In this document: one piece after another, positions 41,333 to 46,242 of the stretch
Numbering within the stretch: position 1 is the first letter of the stretch
How the letters are laid out: each line of letters opens with the position of its first letter
DNA from: Bacteroides sp.
GTDB taxonomy: Bacteria > Bacteroidota > Bacteroidia > Bacteroidales > Muribaculaceae
Direction of reading: 5' to 3'
Assembly (NCBI GenBank): GCA_014802265.1
Contig: JAAVCP010000028.1
Coordinates: 124,001-188,000, forward strand
Length of the DNA: 64,000 nucleotides
Made by a program: the position numbers and the translations under genes
The notes under the pieces: generated by a model
What the model saw: only the letters and a program-made list of their open reading frames with translations
Told to the model about the DNA's origin: nothing
Databases searched by the model: none

Positions 41333-42070
41333 TTATGCTAATGGTATAGCCACAAGTATCAAAGTCATTATATCCGGAGGAGTTACAATTGCTGCAACTA
41401 AACAGATTATCAAAAATGCATATCGTCGATATCTGATGAGATAGTCAGAACGAACAAAACCCATTTTACCCAATACAAAAGCCATTACCGGCAACTGAAA
41501 TATCAATCCCATAAGAAGAGTTAGATTAACGAATGTCGAAATATAACTGTCTAAGGTAATTGTACTATGAATTCTATCAGCCACTGAATATGTTCCCAAA
41601 AATCTGAAGGATATGGGAAACAATATATAGTAACTCATCAACACTCCCAAAACAAATAGCAGATAAATAATAACTACTATTTGAGTTGAATATTTTCTTT
41701 CATTTTCTATTAAAGCAGGAGAAACAAAGCAGAACAATTCATAGAGAATGAAAGGAGAGGCACAAAGAAGTCCTAAATATATTGAAGTGGTTATATGAGC
41801 CATAAATTGACTTGATAAATCTGTTGCTATCAAGTCGACATGAAATTCATCAAATCGAAAACCCGAATCAAATAGACTGCAAAAATCTTCTATTACTTTA
41901 TAAGTGATGAAATCCCACTCACTGGGGGCAAGTAGGATTTCAAAAGTTAGATCTTTGAATGTGAAAACAATACATGCAAAGATAAGGGTTATCATCATAA
42001 TTCTAAAAAGAATCTTACGGAGAACCTCAAGATGTCCTCCAAATGTCATCATGCTGTCATTCGACGACAT
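41333..42070 (-). CDS. tatC: Sec-independent protein translocase TatC, short C-terminus
   Basis: 245 residues. TatC is the receptor for twin-arginine signals. Matches: SMMTFGGHLEVLRKILFRI at the N-terminus (the conserved HL.ELR region), YELFCFVSPALIENER after the third helix, YILFPISFRFL, and LPVMAFVLGKMGFV and RRYAFLIICLVAAIVTPPD before the last helix. The sixth helix is cut: the chain stops after IMTLILVAIPLA, where other TatC proteins continue for about 10-20 residues (usually LLLYE...). It follows tatA by 2 bases and is the last gene of the peptide operon. Confidence 0.9.
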   Translation of the reverse strand: MSSNDSMMTFGGHLEVLRKILFRIMMITLIFACIVFTFKDLTFEILLAPSEWDFITYKVIEDFCSLFDSGFRFDEFHVDLIATDLSSQFMAHITTSIYLGLLCASPFILYELFCFVSPALIENERKYSTQIVVIIYLLFVLGVLMSYYILFPISFRFLGTYSVADRIHSTITLDSYISTFVNLTLLMGLIFQLPVMAFVLGKMGFVRSDYLIRYRRYAFLIICLVAAIVTPPDIMTLILVAIPLA

Positions 42071-42072
42071 GG

Positions 42073-42321
42073 CTACGAGTGTTTGGAAGATTTATCAATT
42101 CCCGTATCTTTAATCCCAGTAGATCCATCTGCCATTTCTTTTCGATCTTGATGAGCCTCTTCCTGATCTATATCTGAAGTATCTCTCATTCCGTCTTTGA
42201 ACTCGCGTACACCCTTTCCAAGACCACGCATCATTTCAGGCAGTTTTTTACCACCCACTAGTAACAGAGCTAACCCCCCGATCAGCAATAATTCTGTGGT
42301 GCCTATAAATCCTAAAATCAT
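42073..42321 (-). CDS. tatA: Sec-independent translocase subunit TatA/E
   Basis: 82 residues. A single membrane helix (about 8-22, ELLLIGGLALLLVGGKKLPE) leads into the amphipathic helix GKGVREFKDGM and a charged tail, the standard TatA layout. The GTTE pattern before the helix and KKLPE after it are typical. TatA oligomers form the pore for folded cargo bound to TatC. It lies 2 bases before tatC and 10 bases after the CXXX accessory gene, inside the Cys-rich peptide operon. Confidence 0.93.
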   Translation of the reverse strand: MILGFIGTTELLLIGGLALLLVGGKKLPEMMRGLGKGVREFKDGMRDTSDIDQEEAHQDRKEMADGSTGIKDTGIDKSSKHS

Positions 42322-42331
42322 CTCCTAAATA

Positions 42332-42607
42332 TTATTCAGGTTTTACAAGCCATATCTCGCAAGTGTCGAAATTAATCTCCCAGTTGGATCCTTCTTCACT
42401 TTCCCAATTATACTTCTGAGACATTCTATTCCACCAATTTTGAAACTTTGTTCCAGTTTCACCCAAATCTCTTACCAGCCTTTCATACAATTCCGAGTCA
42501 TCGGCTGTAAGAATTTTTGCTAACTCATTCAAACCATTACGGCGTTCAAAAAGAGTCCGAATCTCATTCCTTTCTTCCTCAGTGACGCGACTTATTACTT
42601 TATTCAT
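42332..42607 (-). CDS. CXXX repeat peptide modification system accessory protein
   Basis: 91 residues, soluble and mainly helical, rich in Glu/Arg (VTEEERNEIRTLFERRNGL, ELYERLVRDLGETGTKFQNWW) with a C-terminal WEINFDTCEIWLV strand. The length, the TEEERNEI...LFER opening and the ETGTKFQNWWNRMSQKYNW centre match what I recall of the small protein that accompanies CXXX-repeat peptides and their maturases in Bacteroidales and clostridia (a TIGRFAM family). Its role is not established; it may bind the precursor or the maturase. It is 10 bases upstream of tatA. Confidence 0.75.
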   Translation of the reverse strand: MNKVISRVTEEERNEIRTLFERRNGLNELAKILTADDSELYERLVRDLGETGTKFQNWWNRMSQKYNWESEEGSNWEINFDTCEIWLVKPE

Positions 42608-42662
42608 CTTAATAGAAAGTTATATGGTTAATATTCTGAATATTGATTTATTATATATGTTA

Positions 42663-43259
42663 TTAACGGAATCCACCTTTTCCATCACACCCTACACATT
42701 TTCCAAGTCCTCTACATACACCACATCGTCCATTACGAGCGTATTCATCTTGACCAGATCCATCACAATATTTACATCTGCCGGTACCCATACAGGAAGA
42801 GCAGTTTGACCAATCGCGTGTATTTCCACTTTCTGAATATCCATCGGAAAATAAATTCATATAATTTTGTGCCGCTTCATATCCATCACCAATAAAAGAA
42901 TAATCATATACTAATTCCATTGTCATATTCATAAACGAACTCTGTGTGAATTGGCGTACAATTGAATAATCACTCGACACCAATATACCTGTAGTACGTA
43001 GAGCCAGGTTACCATATTGCTCAGGGTAATACTGCATAGACCCATCATAATTCTTAGTTCTGTAAACAAATTTCTCAACTCCATTCAATAATAAGTAACC
43101 ATCATAATATTCTATTACTATTGCTAAAGTTGGAACTGCTTGTGAACCCATACTACTCATAACTTTGGTTACAGCATAACCCTTTATCGTCTGCGCATTA
43201 GTTAATGTTAACATGTAAAAATTACATATTAACAATAAAATTAATCTATTTATTTTCAT
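42663..43259 (-). CDS. Exported protein with four DnaJ-type CxxCxGxG units
   Basis: 198 residues. Signal peptide (MKINRLILLLICNFYMLTLTNA). Residues 24-140 form a beta-rich domain of no recognised family (AVPTLAIVIEYYDGYLLLNGVEKFVY). The C-terminal 45 residues hold CSSCMGTG, CKYCDGSG, CGVCRGLG and CVGCDGKG, the four zinc-binding units of the DnaJ cysteine-rich domain, here on an exported protein without a J domain. It overlaps the SPASM gene by 14 bases in the peptide operon. It may handle the Cys-rich peptide or its disulfides outside the cytoplasm; this is inference. Confidence 0.75.
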   Translation of the reverse strand: MKINRLILLLICNFYMLTLTNAQTIKGYAVTKVMSSMGSQAVPTLAIVIEYYDGYLLLNGVEKFVYRTKNYDGSMQYYPEQYGNLALRTTGILVSSDYSIVRQFTQSSFMNMTMELVYDYSFIGDGYEAAQNYMNLFSDGYSESGNTRDWSNCSSCMGTGRCKYCDGSGQDEYARNGRCGVCRGLGKCVGCDGKGGFR

Positions 43260-44208
43260 TTCTAATAATCACGTCAAAAGGATCAATATAATCGATTTCT
43301 GATATTTCCTTACCCATCATAAAAGACCCGGCTTCACGAATCAACGAAAGAAGGGAACGAGATGTATTACGCTCGATATGAGCCATAACACATTGTTGAC
43401 GACTTGGAGTATTTGTTTCAAGCGTTATTTGTTTGTTAAGCCATACGCATCGGCGACACTGATAAGCATCACATATACGGCATATCGGAGCATGATCAAG
43501 ACGATAAAGCTGAGAATTCTTTATATTCAGACCATTATCAAGATCACCAACTGAATCACTACCGTCAAGATAGAATGCCGGGCAAATATAAAAATTACCG
43601 TCAGGAGCCAAAGTAATGCTTTCATATCCGGCATTACAATTATTCATACTGTCAAGAAATATTCTGTCAGTAAGAAGATTAAAATGTACCATATGCCCTT
43701 TTTTATATTCCTCTCTAATAACTGGGATTAGAGATTCAAGTATCTTGGCATATAAGTCAAAATCTTCATTTGAAAAATTATCCGGATCTGTTATTACCAC
43801 TACAATTCTATCTACCTTTTTTAGTATCCCATTAAGGAAGCGGGCATTATCAAAAAAATGCTTCTTGTCTGATCGAATTATATAGCTCTTATCTTTTTGA
43901 AAATCATAATGTATTAAGACTGCCCACGAATCAAATACTATAACATCAGCATTATCAGTTAGTTGTTTATCTTCACACGTTGAACTAACTATAGAAGTAT
44001 GGTCAATAGAATCAATAATTTTCTTATGTTCATCAGAGATTGTATAATCTGGATATAAGAACTGAATATTAAGATTCTCCGTCATTGCAAAAAATATTGC
44101 CTTTTTAAGAGTAGGAATATCAAATACTGTAGACTTATCGTCACTCCTTTCATAATGACAAAATGAAACAGCATCCTTTGTTAACGGAACAATAAGATAT
44201 TTTAACAT
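43246..44208 (-). CDS. CXXX repeat peptide maturase-like protein (SPASM domain, no radical SAM cysteines)
   Basis: 320 residues. The N-terminal half has no CX3CX2C motif. The C-terminal half is SPASM-like: a cysteine in NNCNAGYESITLAPDGNFYICPAF, then CRICDAYQCRRCVW and a last cysteine in SRQQCVMAH, enough ligands for at least one auxiliary [4Fe-4S] cluster. The start MLKYLIVPLTKDAVSFCHYE and ENLNIQFLYPDYTISDEH resemble the CXXX repeat peptide maturase family as I recall it. It probably acts with the preceding radical SAM enzyme, binding the peptide or relaying electrons. Gap to the preceding gene is 4 bases. Confidence 0.75.
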   Translation of the reverse strand: MLKYLIVPLTKDAVSFCHYERSDDKSTVFDIPTLKKAIFFAMTENLNIQFLYPDYTISDEHKKIIDSIDHTSIVSSTCEDKQLTDNADVIVFDSWAVLIHYDFQKDKSYIIRSDKKHFFDNARFLNGILKKVDRIVVVITDPDNFSNEDFDLYAKILESLIPVIREEYKKGHMVHFNLLTDRIFLDSMNNCNAGYESITLAPDGNFYICPAFYLDGSDSVGDLDNGLNIKNSQLYRLDHAPICRICDAYQCRRCVWLNKQITLETNTPSRQQCVMAHIERNTSRSLLSLIREAGSFMMGKEISEIDYIDPFDVIIRNENK

Positions 44209-44212
44209 ATTA

Positions 44213-45427
44213 TTAGCATGGATTATCTATGGGTTGTTTATGACTTACGTTATATTCTTCACGTTTTCCTTCAAGCTCCAACTTTCTGTAAAGTTTATTC
44301 CAATAATAATTATTAGCTCTTACACGGGCTTTGTGCATCTTACATATAGCAACAGAGCGTTGAAATATAGTTGAAGTTTCAGCGGCATCATAATTCTCCC
44401 CCTGACACCAAGCGCATCCACTCGCTACCTCGCAATTAATACATTCATGTGGTGACTGAGTGGGCATATCAAGTGTCAAAAATGGTCTTAGTTTATTTTT
44501 ATCTATTCCATCCCACACATTACCTATAATTAACGGTGCTTTTGATCTTAAAGAATAAGCCGCAAATCTGGTACATGGATAAAAATTACCTGCTGCATCA
44601 ATTGATAACATTTTACCAGCACCACACCAATTGGAGTTGTCTTTTACAGGTTTACCAATATGTTCAACAAAAAAAGAGCATACATTATTTATATACAAAT
44701 TATTGTCAATTATTACATCTGCCAATTCTATTAATTGTTTTTCAAAAGCGACATCATCACCAGGTTTCCAAACATCTTCGAAAACACAATTAATATGGAC
44801 TTCATCAATCCCTAAATTAAATAAATGTAAAACACTTTCCTTAATATAAGGAATATCAGCAGAACTTATGGTAACCTTTGTGCCTCCTCCTGGAAATTGA
44901 CTTAACCACAAAGGTATATTTCTTACGACATCATCATAAGAACCCTTTTCCGGTACAGTATCTTTCCATATTCTATTCAAATCATGTTTTCTACGTGTTC
45001 CATCTATTGTTATACCTATTGATAAGTGAGTATGATTTTTCTTTATAAAGTTCTGAACAGCAGGAGTATCATAGTTAATCCCATTTGTTGAAAAACTAAA
45101 ACGAAACGAGTTAAACCAATGGTGATTTCGTCTATATAGTTCAAGTTTTATGTAATCACATATTTTATCTATAAGATCTATTTCAAGAAACGGTTCACCA
45201 CCAATAAAATCCCATATCACAGATTCTTCCGGGAAATCGTTTTCATTTGACAGAATGTAATCAATTGCAGCTTTAGCGACTGACCAAGACATTCGTTCCT
45301 TAGTGTTTTTACCCACCAAATAACAATATTTACAAGCAAGCTGACAATCTTTCGTAACAATAAATGTGATTGATTTCGATCGACCCAATTGCCAAGATTC
45401 AACCTGTTCCTTTATTTTTTTAGTCAT
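44213..45427 (-). CDS. Radical SAM/SPASM peptide maturase
   Basis: 404 residues. CQLACKYC places the three cysteines C28, C32 and C35 of the radical SAM [4Fe-4S] cluster; FIGGEPFLE is the SAM-binding GGE motif; FSFSTNG and IGITIDGT follow the usual order. The C-terminal SPASM region has CGAGKMLSIDAAGNFYPC, then CINCEVASGCAWC and a final IC, for two auxiliary clusters. This is the class of enzyme that makes thioether or C-C crosslinks in ribosomal peptides. It lies next to the Cys-rich precursor, separated by a palindrome, and is its likely modifying enzyme. Confidence 0.9.
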   Translation of the reverse strand: MTKKIKEQVESWQLGRSKSITFIVTKDCQLACKYCYLVGKNTKERMSWSVAKAAIDYILSNENDFPEESVIWDFIGGEPFLEIDLIDKICDYIKLELYRRNHHWFNSFRFSFSTNGINYDTPAVQNFIKKNHTHLSIGITIDGTRRKHDLNRIWKDTVPEKGSYDDVVRNIPLWLSQFPGGGTKVTISSADIPYIKESVLHLFNLGIDEVHINCVFEDVWKPGDDVAFEKQLIELADVIIDNNLYINNVCSFFVEHIGKPVKDNSNWCGAGKMLSIDAAGNFYPCTRFAAYSLRSKAPLIIGNVWDGIDKNKLRPFLTLDMPTQSPHECINCEVASGCAWCQGENYDAAETSTIFQRSVAICKMHKARVRANNYYWNKLYRKLELEGKREEYNVSHKQPIDNPC

Positions 45428-45463
45428 ATTGTTTTCTCAATAAATATTTCTCAATAGAAAGGG

Positions 45464-45499
45464 GGTATAATTTGGTGTAATATTACACCAAATTATACC
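45464..45499 (-). terminator. Perfect 36-bp palindrome between precursor and maturase (likely attenuator)
   Basis: Arms 45464-45481 and 45482-45499 are perfectly complementary. On the minus strand the hairpin comes 15 bases after the precursor stop and is followed by CCCCTTTC, a weak U tract, so partial termination is expected: more precursor than maturase message. Confidence 0.65.
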
Positions 45500-45514
45500 T
45501 CCTGAAATCTAAGA

Positions 45515-45826
45515 TTATTTCTTACTGGTCCGTGTGCAGTCGTTATAACAACTGTCCCTACAGGTAGCATTACAATGTCCACGACAATTTCCAGCACATG
45601 TATGCCCACAGCCATCTGCCGCACACGATGTCTGACAACCTCCTGTGCAACGACCTTTACATGAATTTGAACATGAATTATCACAATCATATCCAATGGT
45701 TGTGGCATTTCCTAAAACTGGCACATTTGCGAGGGCAATGGCACCGAGGATAGGCAACGCTGCTTTTGCTGCGTTCTTGAAGAAGCTACGTCGTGATTGC
45801 AGTTCTCCATTCTGATTCTGTTTCAT
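45515..45826 (-). CDS. Cys-rich CXXX-repeat peptide precursor with twin-arginine signal
   Basis: 103 residues from the ATG at 45826. Residues 11-17 are SRRSFFK, the Tat consensus, followed by a moderately hydrophobic stretch (ALPILGAIALANVPVLGNAT) and a likely cleavage near 41. The mature part (from about 42) holds 13 cysteines; all but one neighbouring pair are spaced C-X3-C, the exception being CAADGC with four. The X positions are small or polar (Gly, Ser, Asn, Thr, Asp) with several Arg/His. The downstream radical SAM enzymes point to a modified peptide (RiPP). An upstream longer frame runs through the structured leader and is rejected. Activity unknown. Confidence 0.85.
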   Translation of the reverse strand: MKQNQNGELQSRRSFFKNAAKAALPILGAIALANVPVLGNATTIGYDCDNSCSNSCKGRCTGGCQTSCAADGCGHTCAGNCRGHCNATCRDSCYNDCTRTSKK

Positions 45827-45879
45827 GACATAAATATCACGTCCTATAGGCTTCCCGGATTGAGACTTTGAGAGATTAT

Positions 45880-46206
45880 ACAAAAAAGCGTGAAAGCCTG
45901 TATCGGTTGCTCTCCCTTCTGATAGAGGCTCTCGCATTGCCCGTCCAAGTAGAAAGAGCAACGTCGAAGCCTCACGCTGTATGATATACAGCAGCCTCTT
46001 CGCAGAGACTACGAATTATCATACCCGAAAGACATCTACCGTTGCTATTCCCTGACTTGGACAAAAGAATTTGCGAGATTCCTATCAGTCAAGAATTAGC
46101 GCTGATAAACGCTTTTAATCTGTGTATATTTACCATGACTCTCATGTCATGGTGAAAATTGCACATCCCACCAGCTTACCCATATCGGGCTTCGACAAGC
46201 GATATG
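45880..46206 (-). ncRNA. Structured leader RNA of the Cys-rich peptide operon with alternative pairings
   Basis: Transcribed from the promoter at 46212-46242. Order on the minus strand: hairpin CATATC(46206)/GATATG(46181), hairpin ACCATGAC/GTCATGGT (46153-46132), then segment 1 at 46062-46055, segment 2 at 46046-46040, segment 3 at 45963-45955, segment 4 at 45950-45943 and segment 5 at 45913-45906. Segments 1:4 and 2:3 nest as one helix; segment 3 can instead pair with 5 inside an outer stem 45978-45972/45893-45887 that runs into six U (45887-45882). This is the logic of an antiterminator and terminator. It could also be a free-standing small RNA. I do not recognise an Rfam family. Confidence 0.6.
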
Positions 46207-46211
46207 CGTCG

Positions 46212-46242
46212 CAAAATTAATAAGAATTTTCAACTCTACAAA
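46212..46242 (-). promoter_or_regulatory. Promoter of the leader RNA and Cys-rich peptide operon
   Basis: On the minus strand TTTG (46242-46239), a 19-base spacer and TAATTTTG (46219-46212). Canonical; transcription would begin about where the first hairpin of the leader starts. No comparable box lies between the leader's U tract and the precursor start. Confidence 0.72.

Follow-up and report, generated by a model that had tools for sequence, protein, structure and literature searches.

A stretch of 64,000 nucleotides from a Bacteroides sp. of the family Muribaculaceae (contig JAAVCP010000028.1 of assembly GCA_014802265.1, positions 124,001 to 188,000; here the window) carries a seven-gene operon on the minus strand, which encodes a cysteine-rich precursor peptide, its putative maturation proteins and a TatA-TatC pair. 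The operon is a member of the CXXX peptide system catalogued in NCBIfam and represents a variant with its own exporter of the twin-arginine translocation (Tat) type. It probably resembles the systems for ribosomally synthesized and post-translationally modified peptides (RiPPs), in that a cysteine-repeat peptide would be modified in the cytoplasm, exported in folded form by the dedicated Tat pair and sometimes lipidated. The structured RNA in the 5′ leader of the operon comes in addition and may be of wider significance. That all parts hold together, namely a RiPP-like class with a Tat signal as leader, an own TatA-TatC pair and in part a surface lipoprotein as product, plus a new family of cis-regulatory RNAs of Bacteroidales, has in our judgement a slightly better than even chance.

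A first-pass annotation made from the sequence had described the seven genes as one CXXX-peptide operon with its own export. Re-reading of the window showed all seven on the minus strand at the positions claimed (41333..46242). The pair TTTG-N19-TAATTTTG, which is promoter-like by the Bacteroidetes consensus, has its first base at the stated end, 46242. The anatomy and most of the idea have stood, but the annotation had missed the twin-arginine signal of the precursor, the conserved 5′ leader and the optional nature of its DnaJ-type gene.

Precursor, maturation proteins and the TatA-TatC pair

The maturase model TIGR04115 was matched over cut-off in 30 of 198 sampled genomes of the family, the window's included, and one genome has two copies. 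The window and 30 other fetched loci make up 31 family loci, all of which combine a precursor with TIGR04115, TIGR04119 and TIGR04116; tatA and tatC lie nearby in 28. In a scan of named genomes the best 80 of 372 relatives were kept, most of them with titles of Bacteroidales groups from gut or rumen and two from clostridia (L094, L142). A precursor was found in all 77 of these loci with at least 1 kb of upstream sequence. The 72 loci with at least 2.5 kb downstream all contain relatives of both partner proteins, TIGR04119 and TIGR04116, together with tatA in 59 and tatC in 57. Precursor and maturases are thus found side by side, and not apart as in the case that the first-pass annotation had named as speaking against it. 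Since 15 of the 80 named loci duplicate fetched ones, 96 different loci were compared; the relatives come mostly from metagenome assemblies. When core genes and the opposite-strand frames that overlap them are set aside, no gene family occurs in more than 13 of the 96, and neither an immunity gene nor a leader protease was found in them beside loci of the Tat type. At the level of the order, 7 of 295 sampled genomes exceed the TIGR04115 cut-off. Carriage by IMG/VR viruses was considered and rejected, as 25 stretches fit a pattern and none encodes a relative.

The 13 cysteines claimed for the window's precursor were all counted; 11 of the 12 gaps have CX3C spacing, the remaining one CX4C. A comparison with the NCBIfam CXXX models, which had been proposed as a check, placed the three maturation proteins above cut-off, but left the precursor under the cut-offs of TIGR04117 and TIGR04114 (for the latter 11.7 bits against 20), although the repeat itself is plain. 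Among 161 different precursors, 155 contain RRx[FLIM][FLI] with enough sequence following (150 in a stricter first pass); the other six comprise four called frames without a twin-arginine leader, one divergent leader and one that is too short. The 150 precursors of the first pass have 3 to 74 cysteines (median 14) and variable spacers rich in Ser, Gly, Thr and Lys. In this set, 2401 gaps between successive cysteines (85%) are exactly four residues long, which shows that the spacing is not due to chance.

The window's precursor has the features of a Tat substrate, with the twin-arginine motif followed by a hydrophobic stretch, both in N-terminal position. Relative to the arginine pair, the leaders conserve Phe at +3 (96%) and +4 (94%), Leu at +12 (88%), Pro at +13 (94%) and Gly at +16 (74%). 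Conservation extends beyond the usual features of Tat signals, which suggests recognition by the maturase as well; the leader is thus a predicted Tat signal and probably also the recognition sequence for maturation. A lipobox within 33 residues of the arginine pair is present in 37 of the 155 precursors, and 25 of these 37 have at least two Asp or Glu residues at +2 to +6. Such acidic residues after the lipidated cysteine resemble the surface-export signal of Bacteroidetes lipoproteins, which suggests that many of the lipidated forms are displayed on the cell surface. The window's precursor itself has no lipobox within this distance. In L052, L033 and L119 precursor genes are arranged in tandem, with up to six in L052; their leaders are alike and their cores differ.

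The TIGR04115 proteins are 68 to 78% identical across 30 aligned sequences, and the CX3CX2C motif claimed for the window's enzyme (C28-X3-C32-X2-C35) is unchanged in all of them. The PapB model NF047865 gives a match to the protein as well, with 183 bits against a cut-off of 340, and membership in the PapB family was therefore rejected. As had been claimed for the second SPASM protein, the radical SAM cysteines are missing in TIGR04119; seven cysteines of the SPASM region are retained and are invariant in 73 aligned sequences. Structures were predicted from alignments of all 73 TIGR04119 sequences and of 69 of the 74 listed TIGR04116 sequences, the window's included. The TIGR04119 model (predicted local distance difference test, pLDDT, 91.9) is closest to the PDB entries 5WHY and 5WGG (E 4e-10, template modelling score 0.67-0.68 of the query), both with thioether bond formation in their titles; 5WGG is CteB (PMC10352776). 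From sequence and model, TIGR04119 is a pseudo-radical-SAM protein, probably with two bound clusters. The reset of PapB requires intermolecular electron transfer (PMC10470005), and by analogy one possible role of TIGR04119 is that of an electron relay; alternatively, it may hold the substrate. For TIGR04116, considered as a candidate RiPP recognition element of PqqD-like winged-helix fold, the prediction (pLDDT 93.4) consists of a strand, two long helices and two strands, and such an element was not recognised in it.

The fourth gene had been annotated as coding for an exported DnaJ-type zinc protein. Its N-terminal hydrophobic stretch and four CxxCxG motifs were found, but no match to the Pfam DnaJ zinc finger; the sole Pfam match is DUF7895 with 18.1 bits, under the cut-off of 27. 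In the slot after TIGR04119, 71 of 91 loci have no insert longer than 200 nt, and a protein with at least three CxxCxG motifs is encoded there in just 7. The gene is optional, and the claim that all seven genes act on one product is not supported. The slot between TIGR04119 and TIGR04116 is variable and contains extra precursors, CxxCxG proteins or unnamed secreted-looking proteins (for example in L034, L051, L119, L159 and L171).

The claim that the peptide system has its own export is supported, since gene order, phylogeny and signal peptides all tie the tat genes to it. A branch with support 100/100 separates the 28 CXXX-linked TatC proteins from 26 other TatC of the same family; these 26 are mainly best-scoring matches and not a random sample, and the tree tool warns of meeting long branches. 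The second TatC of the window's assembly is one of the 26, outside the CXXX-linked clade. TatC is present in all 30 CXXX genomes compared with 140 of the 168 other genomes of the family, and in 8 of the 30 the CXXX copy is the sole TatC (the placement of G165 is inferred). In seven of 15 genus-mates no TatC match is found, and none of these seven has TIGR04115 over cut-off. The DNA of three genus-mates, each 99% complete and with only this TatC, contains 50 distinct matches to RRxF[F/L]K. Four of them are Tat-like signals, for which hydrophobicity was computed, and all four belong to CXXX precursors. In three further genomes, searched for RRxFFK alone, the signal-like match is a CXXX precursor in two; none was found in G080, the precursor of which has RRNFI. 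Together, these comparisons provide strong genomic support for folded export by a dedicated TatA-TatC pair.

Six loci (L312-L317) were fetched from other families of the order, four of which (L313, L315, L316 and L317) have both tatA and tatC. The CXXX locus of L314 (5076-10588) contains a cysteine-rich precursor that lacks a Tat signal (TIGR04118, 33.4 bits, cut-off 35), and no tat match was found in the 17 kb fetched. Instead, an ABC exporter is encoded together with a subtilase, for which QhpE is the best model (111 bits, cut-off 165). In this one case a different type of leader goes with a different export machinery. A single protein of 721 amino acids here combines TIGR04115 and TIGR04119, both over cut-off, in support of a joint action of the two SPASM proteins.

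Table 1. Features of the CXXX operon and its 5′ region in the window.
Feature	Position	Strand	Remarks
Precursor peptide, 103 aa	45515..45826	-	SRRSFFK twin-arginine leader, 13 Cys; TIGR04117 46 bits (cut-off 50)
Radical SAM/SPASM maturase TIGR04115	44213..45427	-	600 bits (cut-off 350)
TIGR04119 protein, radical-SAM-like fold without CX3CX2C, SPASM Cys kept	43246..44208	-	238 bits (cut-off 150)
Optional CxxCxG protein (DnaJ-type in the first-pass annotation)	42663..43259	-	four CxxCxG motifs; hydrophobic N-terminus by eye
Small accessory protein TIGR04116	42332..42607	-	100 bits (cut-off 50)
TatA	42073..42321	-	PF02416 49.9 bits (cut-off 21)
TatC, CXXX-linked clade, end of transmembrane helix 6 (TM6) and tail missing	41333..42070	-	PF00902 200.8 bits
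5′ leader with conserved structured RNA	45827..46211	-	kissing loops 46078-46072 (UCUCGCA), 45936-45930 (UGCGAGA)
3′ domain of leader RNA (model R1)	45885..45977	-	P7 encloses P5 encloses P6; U6 run 45887-45882 after closing helix
Promoter-like pair TTTG-N19-TAATTTTG	46212..46242	-	by eye: 46242-46239 and 46219-46212

A structured RNA in the 5′ leader

Across the loci, the DNA that separates promoter and precursor is conserved. With an iterated profile the leader element was found in 65 of the 96 loci, 64 times on the strand of the operon and in 55 of these 64 at most 1 kb from the next precursor frame. The profile also matches its own opposite strand because the element is largely self-complementary. 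In the window, the loop UCUCGCA is complementary to UGCGAGA (Table 1). The second loop is readable in 63 of the 69 copies of the first set, and 61 of these 63 have an exact 6-nt complement in the first zone. Among copies with a variant loop, 28 of 30 have the complement, against a mean of 8.6 and a maximum of 15 in 2000 permutations.

For the 3′ domain, model R1 was built with 18 pairs from 39 of 59 trimmed copies; the first loop is not included. The model has 95.9% standard pairs, whereas slid structures pair at 37-51%, and 49 double-change cells compared with 14.0 in shuffles. Of the 39 copies found with R1, 37 have a readable second loop, and 31 of these have the complement; as 8 of the 37 come from the earlier set, this corresponds to 23 of 29 new ones. 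Considering the 29 R1-found copies with non-consensus loops, 23 have the complement (permutation mean 6.9, maximum 14).

R1 matches occur in 178 of the 198 family genomes (E ≤0.001), with up to 17 in one genome, and in 35 of the 295 genomes of the order (1e-6); in a phylum sample of 296 genomes only the window's own has a match. The window's assembly (G000) contains further copies on contigs C4, C25, C28 (at 38161), C44, C49 and C64 (L249-L259, L318). We fetched 54 copies, mostly best-scoring ones and some from CXXX operons. The gene on their 3′ side has the same orientation in 50 and the opposite one in none, and was not found in 4; on the 5′ side the orientations divide 27 to 26. A Pfam scan covered 20 of the 50 downstream proteins, among them three leucine-rich repeat proteins of the BspA type, one with a caspase domain. 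Other matches are to radical SAM, LytTR, metallo-beta-lactamase-fold, outer membrane and LptE-like proteins and, weakly, to CsgG; 11 of the 20 have no Pfam match. The leader RNA also lies ahead of a LytTR gene (L268, 777-1145, by Pfam) and of a group of LytTR-, FHA- and kinase-like genes (L253, 1-1875, by eye).

No Rfam 15 family was matched at or above gathering score by the element in the window and eight other loci, the sole match at this level in the eight being a tRNA, and the passages found in a literature search on structured RNAs of Bacteroidetes contain nothing similar. The 3′ hairpin and the U-tract that follows resemble a terminator, and the 3′ strand of this hairpin could, by eye, pair with the 5′ start of the element. 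This suggests that the structured leader may control expression, perhaps by attenuation. With many copies per genome in gut Bacteroidales, its signal is open to direct search. If the reading is correct, many genes for envelope and signalling functions, among them those of this operon, are preceded by the RNA family, which would tie peptide production to a signal.

Proposed pathway and alternative explanations

We propose that the leader of the newly made precursor serves as the Tat signal and probably also for recognition by the maturases. In the cytoplasm, TIGR04115 with its pseudo-enzyme partner TIGR04119 and with TIGR04116 would modify the CX3C core, most likely with thioether bonds from cysteine sulphur to a carbon of another residue, as in PapB and CteB. 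The modified and folded peptide would then leave through the TatA-TatC pair kept for it, and the leader would be cut off by signal peptidase or, for roughly one precursor in four, during lipoprotein processing. Such removal would explain that no leader protease was found beside the Tat-type loci. The structured leader RNA would control expression, perhaps through attenuation.

Several observations weigh against this pathway. The tat genes are not nearby in three of the 31 family loci (L039, L042, L054), no tatC match is near 15 of the 72 named loci, and L312 has a Tat-like lipoprotein leader without tat genes in the 17 kb fetched. Another TatC, in part as the only one, is present in 22 of the 30 CXXX genomes, hence export may not depend exclusively on the pair. 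Tat motifs other than RRxF[F/L]K exist, so that other substrates were possibly missed. In the window TatC itself looks truncated, without the end of TM6 and the tail. On the side of maturation, no known leader-binding domain was found, and the TIGR04116 model has no PDB match at E ≤0.001. The leader RNA is not specific for CXXX operons: with the iterated profile it was not found in 31 of the 96 loci, in 9 of the 64 same-strand loci the distance to the next recognised precursor exceeds 1 kb, and it is on the opposite strand in L056. Six of the 37 later copies lack an exact kissing complement, two of them being 35-bit matches of R1.

The product could instead be a metal- or cluster-binding cysteine-rich protein, with the SPASM proteins assisting in its loading; insertion of the cofactor in the cytoplasm would then be the reason for the use of Tat, as with most classical Tat substrates. 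The many regularly spaced cysteines and the optional CxxCxG proteins in 7 of 91 loci would suit such a protein, and Tat substrates of Escherichia coli mostly bind redox cofactors (PMC3712460). We consider this unlikely, however, as the radical SAM motif of TIGR04115 is intact, its NCBIfam relatives are peptide maturases, the spacers are variable and rich in Ser, Gly, Thr and Lys, and no further conserved metal-handling gene was seen in the 96 loci. Copper-storage proteins with CXXXC motifs and Tat signals are known; given the spacer composition and the maturases, an identity with these appears less likely. That the tat pair is a general Tat system located in the operon by chance, with the peptide as one of many substrates, is very improbable. 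As the only TatC of a genome it could serve any substrate, but it belongs to a separate clade, in three genomes with only this TatC no other Tat-like RRxF[F/L]K signal was found, and the seven of 15 genus-mates without TatC all lack the system.

The state of the window's own copy raises the question of decay. Its TatC stops 16 residues after the last TP, compared with 28 for the next shortest plausible relative, and comparison with L058 by eye reveals a short frame-shifting deletion at the end, which may be real or an assembly error. If the operon were decaying in this strain, the truncated TatC would no longer export and the copy would partly be a relic. To this we assign a low probability: none of the other six reading frames is interrupted along the whole of its model, the match to the Pfam TatC domain extends to the domain's end, the deletion could also be an error of sequencing or assembly, and the assembly encodes a second TatC. 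With 4.47 Mb and 5.6% contamination, against 2.0-3.5 Mb in the 15 sampled genus-mates, the assembly may be mixed; the second TatC may thus come from another cell. A RiPP-like peptide with dedicated Tat export remains the reading that we prefer.

Comparison with known systems

The NCBIfam CXXX system (TIGR04115, TIGR04116, TIGR04119, TIGR04117, TIGR04118, TIGR04114) has the same three maturation proteins and a CX3C-repeat target. Its model names are silent on Tat; what is added here is the tatA-tatC pair, the existence of lipidated forms and the leader RNA. In the open-licence literature searched, five of the TIGR numbers of the system are not mentioned and a description of the system was not found. 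Like the Bacteroidales-1 and Gut-1 RNAs, which are in Rfam (PMC2864571), the leader element is a structured RNA of Bacteroidales and gut bacteria; it differs in matching no Rfam 15 family.

The operon resembles the PapB/PapA system of freyrasin in that a radical SAM/SPASM enzyme acts on a cysteine-rich peptide, and PapB joins Cys to Asp in CX3D motifs (PMC9413430). Unlike PapB, the enzyme would have no regular Asp as acceptor here, and it is accompanied by a pseudo-enzyme partner, TIGR04116 and a Tat pair. Maturation of quinohemoprotein amine dehydrogenase (QHNDH) involves QhpD, QhpE and an ABC exporter. The variant locus L314 is similar to this, with its TIGR04115-TIGR04119 enzyme, an ABC exporter and a protease with QhpE as best model; in the window type, by contrast, a Tat leader and tat genes take the place of exporter and protease.

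Full-text searches, limited to open-licence papers, returned no naturally occurring RiPP that has its own Tat exporter. A paper on lanthipeptides speculates on a Tat route and mentions preliminary attempts that were unsuccessful (PMC5686179), and in a review that deals with leader removal, a term search of its main text returned neither 'signal peptidase' nor 'twin' (PMC10885120). With twin-arginine motif, TatA and TatC, the export part of the operon is like classical Tat substrates and TatAC systems, the latter of which lack TatB and are present in 53% of the tatC-bearing bacterial classes (PMC3827258). Unlike in the known TatAC systems, a separate TatC clade here lies beside a peptide maturation operon. 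If the reading holds, this clade would seem to be specialised for one kind of cargo and would provide, together with the leader, a natural route of export for crosslinked peptides.

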